Assembly: GCA_016201065.1 (NCBI GenBank)
Contig: JACQDL010000062.1
Span: 1 to 64,000, forward strand
DNA: 64,000 bases
Direction of reading: 5' to 3'
DNA from: Actinomycetota bacterium
GTDB taxonomy: Bacteria; Actinomycetota; Actinomycetes; Mycobacteriales; JACQDL01
The translations under genes were made by a program, and so were the position numbers. The notes under the pieces are model-generated. The model was given only the letters and a program-made list of their open reading frames with translations, had not been told where the DNA came from and searched no databases. Positions 1-12,764 of this stretch are shown here, in pieces. The first letter of the stretch is position 1, and each line of letters starts with the position of its first letter.

Positions 1-129
1 ATCGCGAACATCCAGCGAGAGACCGCCGACCACACCTTCAGCGCCTTCGAATTGTTCATCAAGAATGGGACGTTCAGATACGACTTCGAGCACCTCTCAA
101 TCCCGATGGGCGAGGCCGATTTTGTTTAA
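1..129 (+). CDS. 3' end of an unidentified gene (partial)
   Basis: An open frame runs from the left edge to a TAA stop at 127-129 (42 codons visible). Third codon positions are about 79% G/C over this stretch, whereas the antisense frame that overlaps it at 74-142 has very A/T-rich third positions, so the + frame looks like the genuinely coding one. The visible tail is rich in Phe, Glu and Asp and ends MGEADFV. I do not recognise the family. It converges on, and overlaps, the 3' end of the histidine-kinase-like gene, whose normal C-terminus seems to be missing, so this fragment probably belongs to DNA that was inserted or recombined here. TAA is an unusual stop in this window. Function unknown. 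Confidence 0.55.
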   Translation: MANIQRETADHTFSAFELFIKNGTFRYDFEHLSIPMGEADFV

Positions 130-820
130 TTGCGGCCATACCACGATGTGGCGTCCCGATGTCGACGCTGCCGCCGATGTTCGCCACCAGCCCGCGGACC
201 AGGAACAGGCCGAGCCCGGTCGAGCCGGTCGGCAACGCCTCCGCCGGCTGCCGGACCCGGGTCACGACGGCGGCCGGCAGCCCGGGGCCGGCGTCGGTGA
301 CGCGGAGCCGCAGGACGGCGGTCTCCGTGCCGTCCGCGGTCACCCCGTCGGCGGTCACCACGTCGGCGGCCACCGCGATCGGTCGGGAACCGTGCTCGGC
401 GGCGTTGCGGACCAGCTCGCGGGCGATCTGGCGCACCGCCGCGCCGTCGCCCTCCAGGAACGCCGGCAGGTTGCTGACCCGGAGCGTGACGGACCCCTCC
501 GCGGCGGAGGTCGCGGCCACCTCGCCAAGAAGCTGGGCCGGCGCGATCAGCTCGGGCGGCCCGCTGGTGTGCCCGGCGAGCACCCGGACGAGGCAGAGGA
601 GCCGGTCGCACGCCGCGTACAGGGCGTCGGCACCGTCCGCGACGTCGTCCAGCATTCGGCGCTGCTCGCCGTCCAGGCCACTGATCGCCAGCAGCTCGAC
701 GAAGCCGAGCAGCGAGTGCAACGGCGTGCGCAGGCCGTATCCCAGGCTCGCGGCCAGCAGGGCGGAGCCGGCGGGGGAGATGGCCGGCTGTCGGGTCTCG
801 TGCATGGTCGTCATCGTCAT
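74..820 (-). CDS. Histidine-kinase-like protein with Tyr at the phosphoacceptor site, 3' end disrupted
   Basis: 248 aa, no membrane segment. Residues 20-80 form a HisKA-like helical hairpin, but the H-box reads LGYGLRTPLHSLLG: the His of the usual SHELRTP is Tyr28 (codon at 737-739). The ATP-binding half keeps its motifs: N-box LVRNAAEHG near 137-145, DAGPG at 176-180, TGLGL at 201-205. After SVDIGTPHRG (about 227) the sequence becomes Lys/Arg/Pro-rich with A/T-rich third positions, so the real C-terminus is probably lost at about 130-142. The ATG overlaps the TGA of the upstream PLP/acyltransferase gene by 4 bp, so the two are translationally coupled. By family knowledge a kinase lacking the His cannot autophosphorylate there; it could be a pseudokinase or scaffold, or a decaying gene. 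Confidence 0.7.
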   Translation of the reverse strand: MTMTTMHETRQPAISPAGSALLAASLGYGLRTPLHSLLGFVELLAISGLDGEQRRMLDDVADGADALYAACDRLLCLVRVLAGHTSGPPELIAPAQLLGEVAATSAAEGSVTLRVSNLPAFLEGDGAAVRQIARELVRNAAEHGSRPIAVAADVVTADGVTADGTETAVLRLRVTDAGPGLPAAVVTRVRQPAEALPTGSTGLGLFLVRGLVANIGGSVDIGTPHRGMAAIKQNRPRPSGLRGARSRI

Positions 821-3333
821 ACCGCCACGGAGGGAGTGAGTGTGTGCGAGGAGGGCATCAGCACCGCCCGGTACTGCCTGGACGACGCCTGAACCCCCTC
901 CGCGAGGTGGGTGAGCAGGTCCGCGTGAAAGGTGTCGGTGGGCTGGACGTACACCCAGTGCCGGTGCGGCCGGGCGCCGAAGCGAGCCTTGTGGAATCCC
1001 GCGCTCAGGCCGAGCAGGACGCGGTGCGCGCCATGCCGGCGTGCCGATCTGATCGCCTGCCAGAGCGCCTGCTGGTAGGCGTGGTGGGTGACCACGGCGC
1101 CGTAGTCGAGGCCGAGAAAGACCGGCGCCACGACACCGTCGCCGACGTGCTGCGCGACGAACGCCACCGGCCGCGGGCCGCCGTCCACCCGGAGCACGAT
1201 CAGTTCCCAGCGCGGGTGCCCGAGCACCGCGTCGAGGACCCGTCTGGGCAGCGGAAAGACGTTCAGGCCGAGGTTGCGGGCGTGCACGTGCCGGTAGAGC
1301 TCGTACAGGTGGTCGAGGTCGGCGGGCGGGACCGCGCGGGCCGCGGCGCTGCCGCCCGGGATGGTCTCCACGTCGTACCGGTGCTCCCAGCCGAGCACCA
1401 CGCTCCGCTGGTGGTGGCGTGCCTTCTTCGGCAGGCCGGCCAGGAAGCCGGCGTCGTCGGTGAAGTCGATGTCCCTGGTCCAGCCGTCCTCGGTGGCCAT
1501 CCGCACGAATCCCTCGCCGAGCAGGAGATCGTGCAGCTCCACGTCGTCGTCGGGAAGATCGCGCAGCACGATGGTGGCCGCGCCGCACCGGTCCTCCTCC
1601 GCACGCGCCGCGCGGAGCACCATCCGCAGCGCCGTCCGCCAGGACCCGGTGCGGTCGAGGAACAGGTGGTTTCCCTCGGTGAGCAGCGACCCCATGGCGA
1701 GCACGGTCGAGGTGAGGAACGACGGGTCGCTCCTCCTGCGGCGCTCGACCTCGGCCGAGACCACCTCGGTGGAGAGCATGTCGTCCTTCCACAGCGTCGT
1801 GGTGAAGAACGTGGCGGCCACCGGCCGGTCGGCCGGGTCCCGCACGACCCAGTAGTGGAACTCCCAGGTCTGCCCGGGCTCCGCCGACGGGTTGGCGAAC
1901 GCCTCCTCCAGGGTGTGCAGGCCGTCCCAGGTGAAGGAGCCGCGGGTGCCCAGCAGCGAGTCCCACTCGGCGGGATCGAGATCGGTGATGCTCCGGTGGT
2001 GGTCCAACCGCAGACCGGAGTCGGGCGTGGGGGAGGGTCGGGCGGGTGGTCGCAGCCGGACCGCGCGGCCGGCGAGCTGGCGGGCGAACGCCCGCTCCAC
2101 CTCGGCCGCCGAGCTGCCGGCGTCGGCCAGCACCTCCGGCAGCGCCACGGCCACGGCGTCGACGATCGCGGCGATGTCGTCGGCGGTGTGGTGTGCGGTG
2201 AGCGTGATCCGCGCACCCGAGCGCTTTGCCGGGACGGCCGGGAAGGTTGCCGTGTCGACGAAATGACCGGCGTCGCGAAGTCGGCCGGTCAGGGCGTAGG
2301 CGATGTCCGGCGTGCCAGCGCCCACGCACCGGATCGGCGCCTCGCTGTGGCTGAGCAGCGGCAGTCCCCGTTCGGCGGCGAGGGCGTTGAACAGCCGGAT
2401 CGAGGAGAGGAGTGTCTGCTGCCTCGGCGGGAGCTCCTCGGACAGGTGCAGCCGGGCGGAGGCGAGCACGGCACCGAGCATCGGTGGCGGTAGCGGACCC
2501 GAGAAGATCAGCGGTCCGCCGACGGTGAACAGCCTGCGCCTGCGCTCGGGGTCGGGCAGGAGGATCGCGCCGCCCCCGGCGGCGAACGACTTGTTCAGGG
2601 AGGCCGCGACCACGGTCCGGGTGAGCGTCTGTGCCCCGAGCCGCTCCAGCACATACCCACGGCCGTGCCGGCCGGTCCAGGACACCGAGTGGGCATCGTC
2701 GAGGTACAGCCAGAGCTGTTCGTGCCGGGCGAGGAGCTCGTCGAGCCCCTCGGTCGGCACGAAGTCGGCGTACATGCTGTAGAGGCCGTCGGCGGCGTAC
2801 CACACCCGGCGGTGGTTCCGGGCGAGCTCCCGCACCCGCCGGTCCAGCACGTCGAGGTTGCTGTGCGGGATGAGCTCCACGGTACTGCCCTGGGCGCGGG
2901 CCAGCTTGGCCGCGGTCTGCACGCTGGCGTGGACCTGGTGGTCGAGCAGCAGCGCGTCGGTGCAGGCGACGAGCGTGGGCAGGGCCGCGAGGTGCCCGGC
3001 CGTGGTGCTCGTCGTGATCACAGCCGGACGGCCGAAGAGCTCGGTCAGCGCCTCCTCGGCGGCGCCGTAGCGGGGCGCGGAGAGGTACGCGCGGGAGGAG
3101 GAGAACTGGCTGCCGTACCGGCGGGCCGCGTCGACCACCGCCTCGACGAGGGCGGGGTGGGTCTCCAGGCCGAGGTAGCTGCACGACCCGAAGTTCGTGA
3201 GCCGCTTCCCCCGCACGGTGATGGTGCGCCCGTCGAGCGGGCCGTCCTCGACCTCTTGGTGCATCACTCCCCGGCGCGCGCCGTCGGAGAGAACGTCATC
3301 GATGGCGCGCAGGAGATCCTCGGCGGTGGGCAC
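817..3333 (-). CDS. Fusion of alpha-oxoamine-synthase-like PLP enzyme and GNAT/FemAB-like acyltransferase
   Basis: 838 aa from a GTG preceded by GGAGGG nine bases upstream; an in-frame ATG at 3397-3399 lacks such a site. Residues about 10-420 are a fold-type I PLP domain of the AONS/serine palmitoyltransferase group: FGSCSYLGLE, DHQVHASV, the cofactor-Asp motif YLDDAHS, and SLNKSFAAGGGA with Lys248 as the expected Schiff-base lysine. Residues about 440-838 resemble BioF2/FemAB-like GNAT acyltransferases (LPKKARHHQRS; LLGLSAGFHKARFGARP near the end). AONS-family enzymes condense an amino acid with an acyl-CoA; the second domain could N-acylate the product, as in sphingoid-base/ceramide chemistry, but CqsA/LqsA autoinducer synthases belong to the same PLP family. 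The substrate is unknown. It is coupled to the kinase-like gene downstream. Confidence 0.8.
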   Translation of the reverse strand: MPTAEDLLRAIDDVLSDGARRGVMHQEVEDGPLDGRTITVRGKRLTNFGSCSYLGLETHPALVEAVVDAARRYGSQFSSSRAYLSAPRYGAAEEALTELFGRPAVITTSTTAGHLAALPTLVACTDALLLDHQVHASVQTAAKLARAQGSTVELIPHSNLDVLDRRVRELARNHRRVWYAADGLYSMYADFVPTEGLDELLARHEQLWLYLDDAHSVSWTGRHGRGYVLERLGAQTLTRTVVAASLNKSFAAGGGAILLPDPERRRRLFTVGGPLIFSGPLPPPMLGAVLASARLHLSEELPPRQQTLLSSIRLFNALAAERGLPLLSHSEAPIRCVGAGTPDIAYALTGRLRDAGHFVDTATFPAVPAKRSGARITLTAHHTADDIAAIVDAVAVALPEVLADAGSSAAEVERAFARQLAGRAVRLRPPARPSPTPDSGLRLDHHRSITDLDPAEWDSLLGTRGSFTWDGLHTLEEAFANPSAEPGQTWEFHYWVVRDPADRPVAATFFTTTLWKDDMLSTEVVSAEVERRRRSDPSFLTSTVLAMGSLLTEGNHLFLDRTGSWRTALRMVLRAARAEEDRCGAATIVLRDLPDDDVELHDLLLGEGFVRMATEDGWTRDIDFTDDAGFLAGLPKKARHHQRSVVLGWEHRYDVETIPGGSAAARAVPPADLDHLYELYRHVHARNLGLNVFPLPRRVLDAVLGHPRWELIVLRVDGGPRPVAFVAQHVGDGVVAPVFLGLDYGAVVTHHAYQQALWQAIRSARRHGAHRVLLGLSAGFHKARFGARPHRHWVYVQPTDTFHADLLTHLAEGVQASSRQYRAVLMPSSHTLTPSVAV

Positions 3334-3477
3334 CGAAACACACCCTCCCCTGGTCGTGGCGTCGCTGTCCCATCCTGTGCGCTCCGGTGGGCGTCTCACC
3401 TATCGACGGTGCGGTGGCGGATCTCAGCAGATTCTCCGTCCGGTCAACAACGGCGCTCCACGGCCGATGTCACCGGC

Positions 3478-5625
3478 ATGGTGCACACTGAGCCCGCCCC
3501 CGAGTCGCGGGTGACCCGATGGCAGTCGAACGACGCCGAGCCTTTCCGCACCGAGACGCTGACAGAGGTGTGCCACGCCATCCGGGTGACGCTCGGTGTC
3601 GGCGCCACGGCGGTGAACCGGATCGTCGGCGACCAACTGGTCGTCGTGGCTGCGGATGACGTCATCGGATTCGGCCTGCGGCCAGGGCTGGCCGCGCCAC
3701 TGGACGAAACACTCTGCGGCCGGGCATTGGCTGGGCGTGCCCCGGGCGACGGGGTCAACAGCTACCTGGTGGTGCCGCTGGAGGACGCCGACGGGGCGGT
3801 CTTCGGCACGCTGTGCGCCATGGACCGCCGGTCGGTGGAGCTCGACGAGCATGACCAGCGGCTGATGCGGGCGTTCGGTGCGATGCTTGCCCGCGAGCAC
3901 GAGCTGGAGGCCGCCCGACTGCGTGAGCAGGCGGCTCGGGAGACTCTCGCCCGGCAGAGCGCGCGCGAGGCCGAGCGATCCCGTCTCGACCAGATCGTCG
4001 CGGAGCTGTCGGCCGTGTTCCTGCGTTCCGAGGTCGAGCAGACCGATGAGGGTGTCGTCGAGGCGCTCACCGCGGTCGGTACCTTCCTCGGCGCGGACAG
4101 TGGTGACCTGTACCTCGCGGAAGCCGAGCGGTGGGTGCCGGGTCCGGGCTGGCGGCTCTCGGGCGTGCGGAGGGCGGACGCGGCGGTGATCCCCCGCCCG
4201 GAGGTCGCCGGGTGGGAGACGGAGCTGGGCCGGGGTCAGGTCGTCCGCTGCGACGGGCCCGACCCCGGATCGGAGCTGTTGGTGCAGTGCCACCTGATGG
4301 CCGGCAGGCCGGCGGGTTGGGCGCTGACCGTGCCGGTGCGGGCGGAGGACCGTCTGCTCGGCTGCCTGGTCTTCGGGTCCTGGCAGGCCAACCCGCCCGG
4401 CATTGGTCCGGCCGGCGTCGACCTGGCCGTGCCGCTGGTGCAGGTCGGGGACCTGGTTGCGGCGGCGTTGACGCGACGGAGCATCGCGGCCGAGCTCCGG
4501 ACCTCCGAGTCGCGCTACCGCACGCTCATCGATGACGTGGCTGATGTCGTCGTGCACCTGGAGCCGGACGGGCGGATCTCGTTCGTCAACCGCACCTGGA
4601 CCGAGCTGACCGGGCTGACCCTGGAGGACACCGTCGGCGCCGGTCCGATGGACAACGTCCATCCCGACGACCGGCCGCTGGCGATGGCGCACATGATGGC
4701 GGTGATGACCGGCGACGACAGCCAGGTCCCGGAGGTGCGATTCATCACCAAGACCGGTGAGGTCCGCTGGATGGAGGTCAAGGGTCGGGCCGTCTGGCGG
4801 TCCGACGGCAGTCTCGGCGGACTCACCGGGACGGTGCACGACGTGACCGAACGGCGGGCCGCCGAGGCGCAGGTGCACGCGGCCCGCGAGGAGGCCGAGC
4901 GGGCCCGGGACGCGGCCGAGCGGGCCAGCCAGGCCAAGAGCGAGTTCCTCTCCCGGATGAGCCACGAGCTGCGTACGCCGCTGAACGCGATCCTCGGCTT
5001 CTCGCAGCTGCTGGAGCTCGCGGAGCTCGGTCCGGAGGACGCCGACAGCCTGCGGCTGATCACCACGGCGGGGCAGCATCTGCTGAGCCTCATCAACGAC
5101 GCCCTGGACATCGGGCGGATCGAGTCGGGGGGGCTGAGCCTCTCGCCAGAGCCGGTGCTGCTCACCGACCTGGTCTCCGAGTGCGTGGGACTGACCCGGA
5201 CCGACCTGACCGAGCCTGCGATCACCCTCCGGGTGGAGGGCTCGGACCACATCAAGGTCATCGCGGATGCGCAACGACTCAGGCAGATCCTGGTCAACCT
5301 GCTGTCCAACGCCGTGAAGTACAACCACGCGGGAGGCGGCGCCACGGTCACGTGGGGGCCGGCGCCCGATTCGGACGGAATGCTGGGCGCCGTCCGGCTG
5401 ACCGTCGCCGACACCGGGAAGGGCATCCCGCCGGACCGGCTGGAGGACGCCTTCGTGCCGTTCGAGCGGCTCGGTGCGGAGCGTACGGAGGTCGAGGGAA
5501 CCGGTCTCGGCCTCGCCGTCGTCAAGCGGCTGACCGAGGCGATGGGCGGTCGGGTGAGCATGTCCAGCGTGCTGGGCGTGGGGACGAGCGTCCACATCGA
5601 CCTGCCGGCGGCTTCGGCCGGTTAG
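3478..5625 (+). CDS. Soluble GAF-GAF-PAS sensor histidine kinase
   Basis: 715 aa without membrane segments. GAF domain at about 20-140, a helical linker (140-185), a second GAF at about 175-335, PAS/PAC at 340-460, coiled coil 460-490, HisKA with His496 in MSHELRTPLNA, then HATPase_c (N-box LSNAVKYN, ADTGKGIP, GTGLGLAVVKRL) to the end. It should autophosphorylate in response to a cytoplasmic ligand or redox cue. No response regulator is adjacent, so it is an orphan. It is transcribed divergently from the PLP/acyltransferase gene across a 144-bp gap (3334-3477). The start is uncertain: ATG 3478 has only a weak ribosome site. The longer open frame back to 2665 is antisense to the neighbouring gene and was rejected. 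Confidence 0.88.
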   Translation: MVHTEPAPESRVTRWQSNDAEPFRTETLTEVCHAIRVTLGVGATAVNRIVGDQLVVVAADDVIGFGLRPGLAAPLDETLCGRALAGRAPGDGVNSYLVVPLEDADGAVFGTLCAMDRRSVELDEHDQRLMRAFGAMLAREHELEAARLREQAARETLARQSAREAERSRLDQIVAELSAVFLRSEVEQTDEGVVEALTAVGTFLGADSGDLYLAEAERWVPGPGWRLSGVRRADAAVIPRPEVAGWETELGRGQVVRCDGPDPGSELLVQCHLMAGRPAGWALTVPVRAEDRLLGCLVFGSWQANPPGIGPAGVDLAVPLVQVGDLVAAALTRRSIAAELRTSESRYRTLIDDVADVVVHLEPDGRISFVNRTWTELTGLTLEDTVGAGPMDNVHPDDRPLAMAHMMAVMTGDDSQVPEVRFITKTGEVRWMEVKGRAVWRSDGSLGGLTGTVHDVTERRAAEAQVHAAREEAERARDAAERASQAKSEFLSRMSHELRTPLNAILGFSQLLELAELGPEDADSLRLITTAGQHLLSLINDALDIGRIESGGLSLSPEPVLLTDLVSECVGLTRTDLTEPAITLRVEGSDHIKVIADAQRLRQILVNLLSNAVKYNHAGGGATVTWGPAPDSDGMLGAVRLTVADTGKGIPPDRLEDAFVPFERLGAERTEVEGTGLGLAVVKRLTEAMGGRVSMSSVLGVGTSVHIDLPAASAG

Positions 5626-5661: not shown

Positions 5662-6291
5662 TCACCCGCGGCTGCCACACCCCGGTGGGGGGTCGTAGTC
5701 GATCACCGCGCCACGGTGGTCGGTCCGCACCGCGCAGCAGGCCGTGAGCAGGTCCCGCAGCCGGCGCCGGCCGCGCTGCACCCGCGACTTCATCCCGGAC
5801 ACCGAGACGCCGACGACCCGGGCCGCGTCGGCCTGGGTCCGCCCCTGGAGATCGACGAGTGTGAGCGCCTCCCGGTGGGCCGGCGGGAGGTGGGCGATCA
5901 GGGGGGTGAGGCACCTCGCCAGCTCGGTCACCACCGCGCCCGGGGTGCCGGCGAACAGCTCCAGGTCGGCCCGTTCGACCCGCTTCGGGTCCGCCACATC
6001 CAGCGGCAGGTGCGGGCGTCGGGTCCGATAGTGATCGATCACCACGTTGCGTGCCACCCGGTACAGCCAGGCCGATGGGTTGCTGAGCTCACCATCGGCC
6101 TGGCGTCGACCGTGCAGCCGCAGCAGCACCTCCTGGACGAGGTCCTCGGCGGTGTCGGGGTCCTCCACCCGGTGGGCGATGAAGTCACGCAGCAGTCGCC
6201 GGGTGTCCCGCCAGGCCCGATCCAGCCCGCCGGGGTCCGACCCGGCGGTGGTCGGTGCAGTTCGGGTCGACGGCGGTCCCGACATGGTCAC
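5662..6291 (-). CDS. sigZ: SigZ-type ECF RNA polymerase sigma factor
   Basis: 209 aa. Region 2 covers about 30-95 (DFIAHRVEDPDTAEDLVQEV; AWLYRVARNVVIDHYRTRR) and region 4 about 130-180 (LPPAHREALTLVDLQG; GVSVSGMKSRVQRGRRRLRD). The tail CCAVRTDHRGAVIDY followed by a CxC-like GCG matches the Cys-containing C-terminus I associate with SigZ-family factors. It should direct RNA polymerase to a small regulon, perhaps in response to metals or thiol stress through the Cys residues (inference). GTG 6291 has AGG seven bases upstream; ATG 6285 is an alternative start. It lies seven bases downstream of a 51-codon Cys-rich gene, clearly the same operon. No classical anti-sigma gene is adjacent. Confidence 0.85.
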   Translation of the reverse strand: MTMSGPPSTRTAPTTAGSDPGGLDRAWRDTRRLLRDFIAHRVEDPDTAEDLVQEVLLRLHGRRQADGELSNPSAWLYRVARNVVIDHYRTRRPHLPLDVADPKRVERADLELFAGTPGAVVTELARCLTPLIAHLPPAHREALTLVDLQGRTQADAARVVGVSVSGMKSRVQRGRRRLRDLLTACCAVRTDHRGAVIDYDPPPGCGSRG

Positions 6292-6298
6292 AGTCTGC

Positions 6299-6454
6299 CT
6301 ATCGGCAGCCGCAGGTGCTGGCCTGCGTCGTGGTAGCGCCGCAGCAGCCTGCCTTCTCCTCGGCGGCGCAGCAGGTGGTCTGCTCGGCCGGCGAGCAGCA
6401 GGCCGTCGGCGGCGGGGTCATCTCGGCTGCGGTGTCGGCGTTCGTGGTCATCAT
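6299..6454 (-). CDS. Small Cys-rich protein with three CC pairs at 9-residue spacing
   Basis: 51 aa. ATG 6454 (a second ATG follows at 6451) is preceded by AAGGGA seven bases upstream; the stop is TAG at 6299-6301. It has eight cysteines: CC at 19-20, 28-29 and 37-38, an exact 9-residue period, then CGC at 48-50. Between them the protein is Ala/Thr/Glu-rich, with no signal peptide or hydrophobic segment. Such a layout suggests binding of a soft metal or metalloid (As, Cu, Hg, Zn) or redox switching, but the ligand is not known. The SigZ gene starts seven bases downstream, so the peptide may act as sensor or buffer for that sigma factor, or simply share its promoter. Strong ribosome site and regular Cys pattern argue that it is real. 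Confidence 0.7.
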   Translation of the reverse strand: MMTTNADTAAEMTPPPTACCSPAEQTTCCAAEEKAGCCGATTTQASTCGCR

Positions 6455-6565
6455 CGGGCTGTCCCTTCTCGGGCCGGTGCGCTGTCACCCAGGAAGACGA
6501 CGCCGTGCTGGAAAGGACGCAACGGCGCGAGCCGTCGGGGAGCCGAGAACATTTTTCCTTGCAGC

Positions 6566-6642
6566 TGGTGCCCCCGGTGGGATTCGAACCCACACCGTGC
6601 GGTGTTTGAGGCCGCTGCCTCTGCCAGTTGGGCTACGGGGGC
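6566..6642 (-). tRNA. tRNA-Leu (anticodon CAA), CCA encoded
   Basis: The minus strand folds as a 77-nt cloverleaf. The 7-bp acceptor GCCCCCG/CGGGGGC is followed by discriminator A and an encoded CCA (6566-6568). D stem GCC/GGC, anticodon stem GCGGC/ACCGC (last pair C-A) and T arm GUGGG/CCCAC with UUCGAAU loop are present. The anticodon CAA at 6606-6608 reads UUG (Leu). The variable loop is only 5 nt, unlike the long arm usual in bacterial tRNA-Leu. It is divergent from pdtaR, a location I recall as conserved in related actinobacteria. Confidence 0.9.
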
Positions 6643-6725
6643 GAACCGGGCAGACCAGTGCCAGCCGAGTAGGCTACGCCACCAGCGCCTCACCGCACAC
6701 GTTACCGGTTCGCCAGGAGATGCAT

Positions 6726-7328
6726 GTGACCGATACCCCCGCTCGCCGCGTGCTCATCGCCGAGGATGAGGCGCTGATCCGGCTCGACCTGAAGGAGATG
6801 CTCGAGGAGGAGGGGTACGAGGTCGTGGGCGAGGCGGCGGACGGCATCCAGGCAGTTGCGATGGCCGAGGACCTTGTCCCAGACCTGGCGATCGTGGATG
6901 TGAAGATGCCGGCGATGGACGGGATCGACGCAGCGGAGAGCATCGTCGGCCGGCGGATCGCCCCAGTGATTATTCTCACCGCCTTCAGCCAACGTGAGCT
7001 GGTGGAGCGGGCCCGGGATGCGGGCGCGATGGCATACCTGGTCAAGCCGTTCCAGAAGGCCGATCTCGTGCCGGCAATCGAGATGGCCACCTCCCGGTTT
7101 GCCGAGATTGTCGCGCTCGAGCGGGAGGTCGGCGGGCTCACCGAGCGGCTGGAGGCCCGCAAGATCGTCGAGCGCGCCAAGGGCGTCCTGATCACCGAGC
7201 ACAAGATGACCGAACCGCAGGCTTTCCGGTGGATCCAGCGCACGGCCATGGATCGTCGCACCACGATGCGTGCCGTGGCGGAGAAGGTACTCGATCCGGG
7301 GGTTTCGGCGGGCGAGATCGGTTCGTGA
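6726..7328 (+). CDS. pdtaR: ANTAR-domain response regulator (PdtaR type)
   Basis: 200 aa. The receiver domain occupies residues 8-122: acidic pair EDE, phosphoacceptor Asp58 in IVDVKMPAMDG, LTAFS and VKPF. The ANTAR domain follows at about 135-190 (RKIVERAKGVLITEHKMTE; RTTMRAVAEKVL). Once phosphorylated by a PdtaS-type kinase, such proteins bind paired hairpins in RNA leaders and act as antiterminators. The cognate kinase is not in this window. GTG 6726 was chosen because AGGAG ends six bases before it; the in-frame ATG at 6720 lies directly against that site. A TAGGCT hexamer at 6670-6675 is a possible -10. Genes for a branched-chain amino acid importer follow, as in Streptomyces. Confidence 0.95.
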   Translation: MTDTPARRVLIAEDEALIRLDLKEMLEEEGYEVVGEAADGIQAVAMAEDLVPDLAIVDVKMPAMDGIDAAESIVGRRIAPVIILTAFSQRELVERARDAGAMAYLVKPFQKADLVPAIEMATSRFAEIVALEREVGGLTERLEARKIVERAKGVLITEHKMTEPQAFRWIQRTAMDRRTTMRAVAEKVLDPGVSAGEIGS

Positions 7329-7482
7329 TCGAGATCGGCCCGCAGTCGCGGTTGGGTCACGACTTCGGCGAGTCCGTACTCGTCTTGCCAAACGCCGCGC
7401 TACTCTCCCGGCCTGATTGACATCAGGTCTGCGGCGACCGCCAGTGTGCGCACCCGCCCGACCCCCTGCATGGAGGGATTAC

Positions 7483-8760
7483 GTGCGTCATCGTTTCCTC
7501 GCCACAGCGGCCCTCGTCCCGGTTCTCGGGGCACTGTCGCTCGCTGGCTGCGCGAAGAGTTCGACCACCAACACTGCGACCGGTACCAACGGCACGAGCT
7601 GCGTGACCGGCGCCAGCATCAAGGCTGTCGCCGCAGCTCCCGGTGGTGCCGCGGCGACCACCACGGCCGGGTCCGGTGGCGGAGGTGCGGCCACCGGCAA
7701 AACCTACACCATTGCGTACCAGGGACCGCTATCGGGCGATAACCAGCAGCTCGGTATCAACGAAGACAACGCGGTGCAGCTCGCGATCGAGCAGGCGAAC
7801 GCCTCCGCTCAGCTTCCGTTCACCCTGAAGTACGTCAACGCCGACGACCAGGGCACGCCGGACGGCGGGCCGCCCGCCGCGCGCAAGATCGTCGACAACA
7901 ACAACGTCGTCGCCGTCGTCGGTCCGGCATTCTCCGGCGCCACCAAGGCATCGGAGCCGATCTTCTCGCAGGCGGGGATCGCCTCGGTCAGCCCGTCGGC
8001 GACCAACCCGACCCTGACCAGTCAGGGCTTCAAGACCTTCTTCCGGGTCGTCCCGCCGGACGACGCGCAGGGCGCTGAGGCGGCCAAGTTCCTGGCCAAG
8101 TACAGCCCGAACAAGAAGATCTACCTGGTCGACGACACCACGGAGTACGGCAAGGGCCTGGCCGACGTCATCGAGAAGCAGCTCAGCGGCCTGGGCATCA
8201 CCGTGCAGCGCGAGGGTGTGGCGCAGGGGACCAAGGACTACTCCGCCATCGCCCAGAAGGTGGCCAGCGCGAGCGTTGACGCGCTGTACTACTCCGGCTA
8301 CTACGCCGACGCCGCCCTGTTCGCGCAGGCGCTGAAGAGCGCGGGCTACAAGTGCCTGGCGATGTCCGGTGACGGATCCAACGACGACCAGTTCGTGACC
8401 GGTGCGAAGGACGCCGGCGAGGGCTGGCTGTTCAGCTGCCCGTGTGGCGACGCTCGGGTGGACCCGAACGCCGCGAGCTTCGCCCAGGCGTACAAGGCGA
8501 AGTTCAACGTCGACCCGGGCACCTACTCCCCGGAGGCGTACGACGCCACCAACACGATCATCGCGGCGATGAAGACGGTCTCCGGCGATGTGACCCGTGA
8601 GAAGGTGGCCACGGCGCTGCGGACGATCGAGTACGTCGGTCTCACCAAGACCGTGAAGTTCCAGCCGAGCGGCGAGGTCGTCGGGTCGACGATCTTCGTC
8701 TACGGTGTCGCCGGCGGCAAGCGGGTGCTCAAGGGCACCACGGAGGCCCTGCTGAAGTAG
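7483..8760 (+). CDS. livK: Branched-chain amino acid ABC transporter substrate-binding lipoprotein
   Basis: 425 aa. GTG start with GGAGG seven bases upstream. A lipoprotein signal peptide ends in the lipobox LAGC (Cys23), followed by a Thr/Gly/Ala-rich spacer to about residue 85. A type I periplasmic-binding fold follows (YQGPLSGDNQQLG; VVGPAFSGATKASEP; SVSPSATNPTL; YLVDDTTEYGKGL). It captures Leu/Ile/Val or related amides or amino acids outside the membrane and delivers them to the LivHM permease. It is first in the livKHMGF cluster; a TACTCT hexamer at 7401-7406 may be its -10. The following hairpin probably makes livK mRNA more abundant than the rest of the operon. Confidence 0.94.
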   Translation: MRHRFLATAALVPVLGALSLAGCAKSSTTNTATGTNGTSCVTGASIKAVAAAPGGAAATTTAGSGGGGAATGKTYTIAYQGPLSGDNQQLGINEDNAVQLAIEQANASAQLPFTLKYVNADDQGTPDGGPPAARKIVDNNNVVAVVGPAFSGATKASEPIFSQAGIASVSPSATNPTLTSQGFKTFFRVVPPDDAQGAEAAKFLAKYSPNKKIYLVDDTTEYGKGLADVIEKQLSGLGITVQREGVAQGTKDYSAIAQKVASASVDALYYSGYYADAALFAQALKSAGYKCLAMSGDGSNDDQFVTGAKDAGEGWLFSCPCGDARVDPNAASFAQAYKAKFNVDPGTYSPEAYDATNTIIAAMKTVSGDVTREKVATALRTIEYVGLTKTVKFQPSGEVVGSTIFVYGVAGGKRVLKGTTEALLK

Positions 8761-9830: not shown

Positions 9831-11167
9831 CGTTCGCTGCTGGCGGCGGTTCGGTAGGCCGCCGCGATGCCTGGTACCACAAACCGGACGTGCGGCGGCT
9901 CGGCGCCAGCCTCGGGGTGGGACTGGTTCTCGCCCTGGTGACCGGCAAGGATGGCCGCTCGGGGCACTTCGGCTCGGGGATTGCCGCGGCCCTGGGCGGC
10001 GTCCGGGTGCCGTCGTTCCTCGCGGTCGGACTGGCCCTGTGGGGGGTGGCCACCGGTATCAACCGCTACGGGGACGAGATGCGACGCGCGCTGGCGCCCG
10101 CAACGGCCGCCCGGAAGCGGGTGACCGGCAACGCCACCTTCCGGACCACGAGCCTGCTTGTCATGCTCGTGGTCGCCATCGGGATCCCGCCGATGCTGAG
10201 CTCGTTCTGGCAGGGCGTGCTGGTCGAGCAGGTCGGCATCTTCATGCTGCTCGCGGTCGGGCTCAACGTCGTCGTCGGCTGGGCCGGACTGCTCGACCTC
10301 GGCTACATCGCCTTCTACGCCATCGGCGCCTACACCACCGCGTACTTCACCGGGACGCTCCCGGTGCAGCCGCCGATCGTGCTCAACCCGTTCCTCTGCT
10401 TCCCGCTCGCCGTGCTTGCCTGCCTGCTCGCCGGCGTGCTGCTCGGGGCGCCGACGCTGCGGTTGCGCGGCGACTACCTGGCGATCGTCACGCTCGGGTT
10501 CGGGGAGATCGTCCGGATCGTCGCGAACAACTCCGATGGGATCACCAACGGTTCGCGCGGCGCCACGAACATCCCGCATTTCTCCATCCACCTGCTCGGG
10601 ATCAACTACGACTGGACGCTGAACTCGCTGCCGTACTGGTACCTGATCATGGTGGTTCTCGCGGTGGTCGTCCTGCTGTTCTTCCGCCTGGAGCACTCCA
10701 GGATCGGGCGGGCGTGGGCCGCGGTCCGCGAGGACGAGGTCGCCGCGCAGGCTTCCGGTGTGGCCACGGTGAAGATCAAGTTGTTGGCATTCGCGATCGG
10801 CGCGTCGACCTCGGGACTCGCCGGCGTGATCTACGCCAGCAAGATCGGGTTCATCTCGCCGGACAACTTCCTGCTCATCCTCAGCATCTCGGTGCTCGCC
10901 TACGTTGTCTTCGGTGGGATGGGCTCGCTGTTCGGCGTGATGGTCGGAGCCGCGTTGTTGACCTGGCTCCCGCAGTTCCTCCGGGACTACGTGCCCGCCA
11001 CCGACCGCAACCTCTACATCGGAGCCATCCTGGTGCTCATGATGATCTTCCGTCCGGCCGGGTTGCTGCCGGCGCGGCGGCGCAGAACCGAGCTGTCCCT
11101 GCACGACATCCCGGAGGCAGAGACGGTCGCGGTGCCGGCACCAGGCTCGATGGGCGGGTCGATCTGA
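9827..11167 (+). CDS. livM: Branched-chain amino acid ABC transporter permease LivM
   Basis: 446 aa. A roughly 110-residue N-terminal extension contains about two predicted helices (LGASLGVGLVLALVTG; FLAVGLALWGVATGI). The conserved permease core follows: LLAVGLNVVVGWAGLLDLGY, PTLRLRGDYLAIVTLGFGEI, and the coupling segment RAWAAVREDEVAAQASGV. It pairs with LivH in the importer. ATG overlaps the livH stop by 4 bp, and its own stop overlaps the livG start by one base. The long N-terminal region is typical of actinobacterial LivM proteins, which often exceed the enteric length. Confidence 0.93.
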   Translation: MTFAAGGGSVGRRDAWYHKPDVRRLGASLGVGLVLALVTGKDGRSGHFGSGIAAALGGVRVPSFLAVGLALWGVATGINRYGDEMRRALAPATAARKRVTGNATFRTTSLLVMLVVAIGIPPMLSSFWQGVLVEQVGIFMLLAVGLNVVVGWAGLLDLGYIAFYAIGAYTTAYFTGTLPVQPPIVLNPFLCFPLAVLACLLAGVLLGAPTLRLRGDYLAIVTLGFGEIVRIVANNSDGITNGSRGATNIPHFSIHLLGINYDWTLNSLPYWYLIMVVLAVVVLLFFRLEHSRIGRAWAAVREDEVAAQASGVATVKIKLLAFAIGASTSGLAGVIYASKIGFISPDNFLLILSISVLAYVVFGGMGSLFGVMVGAALLTWLPQFLRDYVPATDRNLYIGAILVLMMIFRPAGLLPARRRRTELSLHDIPEAETVAVPAPGSMGGSI

Positions 11168-12045
11168 TGGCCAGATCCGCACCGACCGCCGCGGCGAGGG
11201 TCGCCGATCCGATCTTCGATGTTGCCGGTGTCACCCTGCGCTTCGGTGGGGTCACCAGCCTCGCCGACGTGACGCTCCAGATGGGTCGCGGCGAGATCCT
11301 CGCCATCATCGGCCCGAACGGGGCGGGCAAGACGTCACTGTTCAACTGCCTCACCGGCGTGTACCGGCCGCAGACGGGGTCCATCACCTTCCGGGCCACC
11401 CGCACGGAGCTGCCGGTGACGCTGCTGGGGCGCAAGACCCATCAGATCAACCACCTCGGCATCGCCCGGACCTTCCAGAACATCCGGCTGTTCCCGGCGC
11501 TGACGGTGCTGGAGAACGTCAAGGTCGGGCTGGAGGCCCGGCACGGGGTCGGTCCGATCTCGGCAATGCTCGGCCTGCCCAACGCCCGGCACGCCGAGCG
11601 TGAGAGCACCCGGCGCGGGATCGAGCTGCTCCGCTTCGTGGGGTTGGCCGACCAGGCCAACACCATCGCCAGCGCGCTGTCCTACGGCGCGCAGCGCCGG
11701 CTGGAGATCGCTCGGGCCCTGGGCACCGGTCCGGCGGTGCTGCTGCTGGACGAGCCGGCGGCCGGGACGAACCCGGTCGAGAAGCGGGAGCTGGCCGACC
11801 TGATCCGGCAGATCAACCGTGATCTCCGGGTCAGCGTGCTCCTCATCGAGCACGACATGCGCCTGGTCATGTCGGTCGCCACCCGGGTGATCGTGCTGAA
11901 CTTCGGCCAGCTCATCGCCGCCGGGACGCCGGAGCAGATTCAGCGCAACCCCGCGGTGATCGAGGCATACCTGGGCACCGGCGGTCAGGCAGAGGACGGC
12001 AGGAATCCCGGCACCGATGCCGGCGGAGGGGGTGGCTGGCGATGA
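11167..12045 (+). CDS. livG: Branched-chain amino acid ABC transporter ATPase LivG
   Basis: 292 aa. ABC ATPase with Walker A GPNGAGKTS (about 46-54), Q-loop region ARTFQNIRLFP, signature LSYGAQRRLEIARAL, Walker B VLLLDEPAAGTNP, and switch His in LLIEHDMRLVM. The C-terminal segment QIQRNPAVIEAYLG is typical of LivG. It powers uptake with LivF from the cytoplasmic face. Its start overlaps the livM stop by one base and its stop overlaps livF by 4 bp, so the permease and ATPase genes form one coupled unit. Confidence 0.94.
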   Translation: MARSAPTAAARVADPIFDVAGVTLRFGGVTSLADVTLQMGRGEILAIIGPNGAGKTSLFNCLTGVYRPQTGSITFRATRTELPVTLLGRKTHQINHLGIARTFQNIRLFPALTVLENVKVGLEARHGVGPISAMLGLPNARHAERESTRRGIELLRFVGLADQANTIASALSYGAQRRLEIARALGTGPAVLLLDEPAAGTNPVEKRELADLIRQINRDLRVSVLLIEHDMRLVMSVATRVIVLNFGQLIAAGTPEQIQRNPAVIEAYLGTGGQAEDGRNPGTDAGGGGGWR

Positions 12046-12764
12046 CGGAGCTGCTCGAGGTCGACGGCATCGAGGTGCGGTACGGCGCGATCGCCGCCCT
12101 GAAGGGGGTGTCCTTCTCGGTCCGCAGGGGCGAGATCGTCGCCCTGCTCGGCGCCAACGGTGCCGGCAAGACGACGACCCAGCAAACGGTGTCCGGCCTG
12201 CTGCGGCCGGCCTCGGGTCAGATCCGCTACGGAGGTCAGCGGATCGACGGCGTGCCCGCGCACGAGATCATCCGGCTCGGGATCTGTCACGTCCCCGAGG
12301 GGCGTCGGGTGTTCGCGCGGATGAGCGTGGTGGAGAACCTGCAGATGGGCGCGTTCCGGTTCCGCCGGGTACGCCCGGAGGCGCTGGACCGGGTGTTCAC
12401 GCTCTTCCCGAGGTTGAAGGAGCGGGCCAAGCAGAGCGCGGGCACGCTTTCCGGTGGTGAGCAGCAGATGCTGGCCATCGGGCGGGCCCTGATGGGGGAA
12501 CCCCGCCTGCTGCTGCTGGACGAGCCCTCGATGGGGCTCGCGCCCCTCGTCGTACGGCAGATCTTCGAGATCATCCGCGAGATCAACCAGCAGGGCACCA
12601 CTGTTCTGCTGGTCGAGCAGAATGCCGCCCAGGCACTGCGGCTGGCCCACCGTGGCTACGTCCTGGAGACCGGACGCATCGTCATGGAGGACCGGGCGGT
12701 CACCCTCCTCGCGGATGACCGGGTACGGGCGGCCTACCTCGGCGAGGACCTCGGCGAGGGGTAG
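12042..12764 (+). CDS. livF: Branched-chain amino acid ABC transporter ATPase LivF
   Basis: 240 aa, the usual LivF length. Walker A GANGAGKTT, Q-loop region HVPEGRRVFARMSV, signature LSGGEQQMLAIGRAL, Walker B LLLLDEPSMGLAP, switch His replaced by Gln in LLVEQNAAQAL, which is normal for LivF. Second ATPase of the importer, last gene of the operon. ATG lies inside the end of livG. Transcription probably ends in the 373-bp gap that follows, though no strong terminator hairpin is evident there. Confidence 0.94.
   Translation: MTELLEVDGIEVRYGAIAALKGVSFSVRRGEIVALLGANGAGKTTTQQTVSGLLRPASGQIRYGGQRIDGVPAHEIIRLGICHVPEGRRVFARMSVVENLQMGAFRFRRVRPEALDRVFTLFPRLKERAKQSAGTLSGGEQQMLAIGRALMGEPRLLLLDEPSMGLAPLVVRQIFEIIREINQQGTTVLLVEQNAAQALRLAHRGYVLETGRIVMEDRAVTLLADDRVRAAYLGEDLGEG

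Follow-up and report, generated by a model that had tools for sequence, protein, structure and literature searches.

A 64,000-nucleotide stretch of contig JACQDL010000062.1 (positions 1 to 64,000, forward strand; hereafter the window), from an Actinomycetota bacterium (GenBank assembly GCA_016201065.1), carries near its start a gene that joins an alpha-oxoamine synthase (AOS) to a FemAB/GNAT acyltransferase in one polypeptide. At a rough probability of 0.52 we consider this fusion to be a two-step synthase of an N-acyl aminoketone lipid, comparable to 3-ketoceramide, that is mostly paired with PAS-type regulators. Its catalytic domains are known ones; their combination is a new, conserved and sensor-linked architecture that is widespread in bacteria.

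The fusion protein and its two domains

The reading frame of the fusion, on the minus strand, extends open to a GTG at 3399, which would give 860 aa. We favour the GTG at 3333 as the probable start (838 aa) because of the homologues and of a purine-rich, Shine-Dalgarno-like stretch (GGGGAGGG). With this start the lysine of the pyridoxal phosphate (PLP) site is K248 (codon 2590–2592), the residue already named in the initial annotation. K248, H135, D212/D213, H215 and R375 are invariant in an alignment of 72 homologues (72/72), and among them are the PLP lysine and the catalytic His, Asp and Arg of the AOS fold. K516, D518, R533, R591 and K782 of the acyltransferase domain are equally invariant (72/72), and the C-terminal half matches PF13480 at E = 1.2e-9 and 38.9 bits, above the gathering cut-off of 22.

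An AlphaFold2 model of the fusion, with the 72 homologues as input, has two confident domains (pLDDT 93.1, pTM 0.89). In a Foldseek search the N-terminal half matched Alb29 (TMt 0.87), SPT and BioF (0.86–0.88) and also Kbl. The C-terminal half, modelled separately, matched tandem GNAT transferases of the FemX type (FemX, E = 1.4e-12), Sbb17 of streptothricin biosynthesis, N-myristoyltransferases and MprF/LPG synthase domains, at 14–18% identity. Searching PDB sequences with the C-terminal domain, whether by itself or in profile form, gave nothing meaningful; the nearest structures came only from the fold search. Family scores, PF13480 and the model thus agree with the initial description of a PLP domain and a GNAT/FemAB-like acyltransferase in one polypeptide, and the order of reactions proposed there, condensation followed by N-acylation, is probably right.

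The AOS half belongs to a lineage of its own

The fusion was scored against curated NCBIfam cut-offs and fell short of every one: 169.6 against 426 bits for TIGR00858 (bioF); 132.6/500, 126.8/640 and 97.4/670 bits for the SPT families NF047599, NF047600 and NF047603; 72.1 against 428 bits for NF005526 (alpha-hydroxyketone synthase); and 272 against 342 bits for NF005697 (PRK07505). We also built a maximum-likelihood tree of AOS domains from 24 sampled fusions and a small reference set, in which some reference branches are long and CqsA is represented by a sequence that matches PDB chain 2WK8 nearly exactly. All 24 fusions form one clade (96/90), whose sister group is Alb29 with a PRK07505-like protein (union 100/100). 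The clade stands apart from BioF, Kbl, ThAOS, SPT and CqsA, and the split from BioF, SPT and Kbl is 100/100. On cut-offs and tree together we rejected membership of the AOS half in the BioF, SPT and CqsA/LqsA families. The initial annotation had drawn on the sphingoid SPT and CqsA/LqsA families as precedents, and neither placement holds; clustering of the PLP domain with BioF, which it had also considered, did not occur.

Sensor genes adjoin the fusion across phyla

Scanning 84,980 species genomes yielded 196 relatives. The best 80 of these, two further loci from a whole-genome search and the window make up the 83 loci described here; the background for gene densities was taken from the same contigs, 6–10 kb from the fusion. 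The density of histidine kinases is 0.187 per kb in the 2 kb nearest to the fusion, 0.053 per kb between 2 and 4 kb and 0.005–0.024 per kb in the background, a drop of about 8- to 40-fold. In 67/83 loci a gene for a kinase, a receiver, a PAS protein or DUF7793 lies within 3 kb of the fusion, and sensor genes adjoin it across Actinomycetota, Bacteroidota, Myxococcota and Cyanobacteriota.

The kind of sensor differs from lineage to lineage. Bacteroidota usually have a set comprising DUF7793, a PAS-HisKA_3 kinase and a NarL-type regulator, divergent from the fusion. DUF7793 (PF25056, SpoIIAA-like) stands beside the fusion in 51/83 loci (L028, L034–L041, L044, L060, L063, L064, L072–L075 and others), often divergent from it and co-oriented with the PAS kinase; 62 DUF7793 genes lie within 2 kb of a fusion and none beyond 4 kb. 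No papers on this domain were found in the literature library that we searched. An AraC-type regulator sharing the PAS-like region stands in for the kinase in L045, L048 and L071, and in Solirubrobacter (L020) a divergent PAS-GGDEF-EAL protein replaces it, with the same motifs in L021 and L088. Among actinobacteria a PAS-HK-REC protein (histidine kinase, HK, with receiver) homologous to the window's sensor kinase adjoins the fusion in L011, L012, L014, L016 and L124. The fusion, the PAS-HK gene and a gene for an HK-like-REC-Hpt protein remain together although their order and strand vary (L011/L012, L014, L016), a pattern that speaks for selection to keep them paired. The initial annotation had linked enzyme and kinases from position only; the counts, the density gradient and the tree across phyla now support that link, and the opposite pattern, a general lack of kinases beside the homologues, did not occur, since most homologues have sensor neighbours.

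The fusion gene itself is patchy in actinomycetes, with a match in 4/395 sampled genomes of the class, and no full-length homologue was found in plasmid records. Two genes carry the AOS half without the acyltransferase domain: one in Dactylosporangium (L085, 9914–11299; 65% identical to the window's AOS half) and one in a 10-Mb actinomycete genome (G164; L125, 4851–6380; 56% identical). A Pseudomonadales metagenome-assembled genome (MAG; L025) has tandem fusion copies (5806–8298 and 9872–12412) around a gene resembling a methyltransferase.

Neighbouring genes in one clade suggest lipid chemistry

In a tree of 72 fusions one mostly sensor-free clade (support 98) unites Xenococcaceae, Aureispira, Myxococcota and gammaproteobacteria. 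Here the neighbours are of another kind. In Xenococcus (L047) the order is short-chain dehydrogenase/reductase (SDR), fatty-acid hydroxylase (FA_hydroxylase, PF04116), fusion and AMP ligase; the ligase lies 44 bp downstream and has a C-terminal domain of the DIP2/FAAL (fatty-acyl-AMP ligase) type. In a myxococcote (L082) the gene right after the fusion encodes a FAAL-like ligase that includes a carrier domain (LGLDS), another FAAL-like ligase lies nearby in L049, and in Aureispira (L054/L081) an SDR of the same cluster is just upstream. This set of neighbours reads like a sphingolipid-type pathway, in which a fatty acid would be activated, condensed, N-acylated, reduced and hydroxylated. These neighbours tilt the question that the initial annotation had left between a lipid pathway and a synthesis-plus-sensing unit towards lipid chemistry.

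We therefore favour an N-acyl aminoketone lipid on the strength of the FAAL-like ligase, SDR and hydroxylase neighbours together with the precedent of Spt, bCerS and CerR. The AOS domain would join a fatty acyl thioester (acyl-ACP or acyl-CoA, most probably) to an amino acid by decarboxylative condensation, yielding an alpha-aminoketone, and the FemAB/GNAT domain would then acylate the new amine; the N-myristoyltransferases among its fold matches were counted for fatty N-acylation. The SDR, fatty-acid hydroxylase and fatty-acyl-AMP ligase found in some lineages may complete the pathway there. In most lineages the gene adjoins a usually divergent PAS-type sensor, be it a histidine kinase, an AraC regulator or a GGDEF-EAL protein, and this pairing suggests that production is probably under the control of that sensor. 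The sequences themselves show the domains, the catalytic residues, the clade and the co-localisation, from which we infer the substrates, the product, the succession of the two steps and regulation by the sensor.

Several observations weigh against the lipid assignment. FAAL or SDR neighbours occur in only about 5/83 loci, all within the one clade and none actinobacterial, and in some loci, for example those of Blastococcus, the adjacent genes are of neither the sensor nor the lipid kind. Aminoacyl-tRNA transferases (FemX, Sbb17, MprF) share the FemAB fold, so that the acyl donor is a predicted one, and bCerS is likened to the C-terminal domain by reaction order.

Alternative explanations

The sensors could detect what the enzyme makes. 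On this account the locus is a synthesis-plus-sensing unit in which the adjoining PAS/GAF proteins perceive a diffusible or membrane signal made by the fusion, much as in CqsA/CqsS or LqsA/LqsS but with a synthase of an unrelated subfamily. It overlaps with the lipid synthase that we favour, as an N-acyl aminoketone could itself be the signal. The occurrence of sensor genes beside the fusion in four phyla speaks for it, as does the retention of PAS input while the output is swapped (HK, AraC, GGDEF-EAL). However, the fusion failed the model for alpha-hydroxyketone synthases and its clade differs from that of CqsA; PAS and GAF domains sense many things, and co-localisation fits plain regulation equally well; and the mostly sensor-free clade suggests a chemistry without need of sensing. 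We regard the account as possible but unlikely. The same tentative standing, well short of an even chance, attaches to a broader proposal: a multi-phylum signalling system, so far undescribed, in which the AOS-FemAB product (an N-acyl aminoketone, as lipid or pyrazinone precursor) would be detected by the adjoining PAS/GAF sensors with interchangeable outputs, DUF7793 of Bacteroidota being a possible carrier or partner and the actinobacterial HK-like protein, without either phosphoacceptor histidine, a receiver-only module.

The pairing might also reflect descent only, the kinases being functionally unrelated to the enzyme. Related loci are indeed not independent, and kinases are missing nearby in five Geodermatophilaceae loci (L015, L017, L018, L019 and L022; Blastococcus and a Frankiales MAG) and in L123, whose congener L124 has one. 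Against this, the three actinobacterial genes stay together although they are differently ordered and oriented from locus to locus, and different phyla have different sensor types. In addition, the sensor label changes five times on the tree of 72 fusions compared with 13.1 times for shuffled labels, a contrast to which near-copies contribute. Descent alone strikes us as improbable.

A further alternative concerns the donor. DPO and AI-3 biosynthesis combine an aminoketone with an activated amino acid. Were the FemAB domain to take aminoacyl-tRNA, the product would be an N-aminoacyl aminoketone, and its cyclisation would give a pyrazinone, as with DPO or autoinducers of the AI-3 type. The aminoacyl-tRNA-dependent FemX and Sbb17 are among the best structural matches of the domain, but a fold match at 14–18% identity cannot tell donors apart, and the FAAL-like ligases, carrier domain and fatty-acid hydroxylase beside relatives indicate fatty acyl substrates; we think a pyrazinone product quite doubtful.

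Finally, a biotin-pathway or generic housekeeping AOS enzyme adjoining kinases by chance would account for the fold and family that the fusion has in common with BioF, but was already disfavoured and is very improbable in view of the bioF score, the tree split, the enrichment of kinases near the fusion and a separate BioF homologue of the same genome, which lies close to homologues of bioB and bioD on contig C36.

The locus in the window

Table 1. Features of the fusion locus; coordinates refer to the window unless a locus is named.
Feature	Position	Strand	Remarks and basis
AOS-acyltransferase fusion gene, predicted 838 aa	817–3333	−	GTG start at 3333; open reading frame, homologues, model
AOS (PLP) domain	2122–3324	−	residues about 4–404; family scores, fold, tree
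FemAB/GNAT acyltransferase domain	859–2010	−	residues about 442–825; PF13480, FemX fold
Divergent intergenic region, 144 bp	3334–3477		sequence
GAF-GAF-PAS-HisKA-HATPase sensor histidine kinase	3478–5625	+	divergent partner; domain scan
N-terminal remnant of HK-like protein	141–820	−	HisKA without His (ASLGYGLRTPLHS) and HATPase_c; ATGA overlap with fusion stop
End of multicopy insertion element	1–140		interrupts HK-like gene; contig also ends here
Whole HK-like genes	L011 6576–8123; L012 10916–12466; L014 14530–16023; L016 6241–7752		

The divergent kinase has GAF (in two stretches), PAS, a HisKA domain with intact phosphoacceptor histidine (motif MSHELRTPL) and HATPase_c above cut-off, and is therefore a sensor histidine kinase; it faces the fusion over 144 bp, as first described, and this region presumably holds the promoters of both genes. 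Beyond the kinase lie a SigZ-like ECF sigma factor (5662–6291, minus strand; 159.7 bits, just below the TIGR02959 cut-off of 168.65) and a response regulator resembling an ANTAR-type protein (6255–7328, plus strand).

On its other side the fusion is coupled by ATGA to the kinase-like gene, again as described initially (fusion TGA 817–819, kinase-like ATG 818–820). That gene had been read as a kinase without the HisKA histidine. The missing histidine stands; completeness does not, for the frame holds what remains of the N-terminal part of a longer HK-like-REC-Hpt protein. Its remainder (REC and Hpt) is on contig C47 (L106, about 142–1005), whose start continues the protein at 49% identity to residues 232–511 of a relative. 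Positions 1–140 of the window recur, at 97–100%, in 10 further places of this genome, mostly at or near contig ends, and positions 1–140 of C47 (G000), directly before the continuation, are another multicopy element end with 8 genome matches. The two ends have ATTAAACAAAA and TATGGC in common, in inverted orientation (TATGGC..ATTAAACAAAA); no clear target-site duplication was found at them. A short plus-strand reading frame (..NIQRETADHTFSAFELFIKNGTFRYDFEHLSIPMGEADFV) in the element end stops at about 129. We rejected the open reading frame at 74–832 as a complete kinase-like gene, because two kinds of element end (11 and 8 genome matches) flank its halves; the element therefore splits the HK-like gene in this genome, or at the least in its assembly.

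The HK-like protein is whole at four other loci (L011, L012, L014 and L016), with about 500 aa and the order HisKA-HATPase-REC-Hpt. Over these four and the window the HisKA histidine is replaced by F, F, Q, Q and Y and the Hpt histidine by D, D, E, E and G; the receiver Asp is kept in all, and the ATP-binding motifs are degenerate in L014. Having lost its phosphoacceptor histidines, the protein lacks the mark of a functional histidine kinase and, on its sequence, should not autophosphorylate; it may instead receive phosphate from the PAS-HK encoded next to it. A conserved protein of this make-up, a receiver-only pseudo-hybrid kinase, is notable in itself.

Significance and comparison with known systems

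The literature library that we searched contained no account of the fusion together with its sensors; Stankeviciute 2022 may mention an actinobacterial Spt-acyltransferase fusion. From the fusion one would expect many bacteria, Gram-positive actinobacteria and cyanobacteria among them, to make N-acylated aminoketone (ceramide-like) lipids with a single protein, and such lipids would be linked to control by two-component systems and c-di-GMP. Should the product prove to be what the adjoining PAS sensors bind, it would add a new class to the bacterial signals made by AOS enzymes, of which CAI-1 and LAI-1 are known. The neighbourhood also offers a concrete handle on DUF7793.

The closest solved relative of the AOS half is Alb29 of the albogrisin pathway (PDB 8XHA; 32% identity, E about 1e-47), a stand-alone AOS whose substrates are L-glutamate and acyl-CoAs (PMC11906848) and which, unlike the fusion, has no acyltransferase domain. 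The C-terminal domain has the fold of the FemX/FemAB/MprF-type transferases (PF13480/PF04339), which use aminoacyl-tRNA, whereas here the domain is joined to an AOS and its donor is predicted. With CqsA/CqsS and LqsA/LqsS the locus shares the placement of an AOS-fold synthase gene beside a sensor kinase gene; yet CqsA lies in the opposite half of the tree and is not among the PDB matches at E <= 1e-3, and the present synthase has an acyltransferase attached, with sensors of the GAF/PAS type beside it. The sphingolipid pathway of Pseudomonas fluorescens (PfSgaAB) is likewise a non-canonical route using an AOS, but it is linked to a polyketide synthase and has no AOS-acyltransferase fusion (PMC12134224). 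In reaction order the nearest analogue may be the Caulobacter pathway of Spt, bCerS and CerR, in which Spt and bCerS are both cytoplasmic and bCerS is modelled to acylate the ketone intermediate before its reduction (PMC11087976). The order that we propose is the same, AOS condensation and then N-acylation of the ketone; in Caulobacter, however, the two activities reside in separate proteins, here in one polypeptide, and unlike Spt the AOS half lies outside the SPT group, far below its cut-offs.

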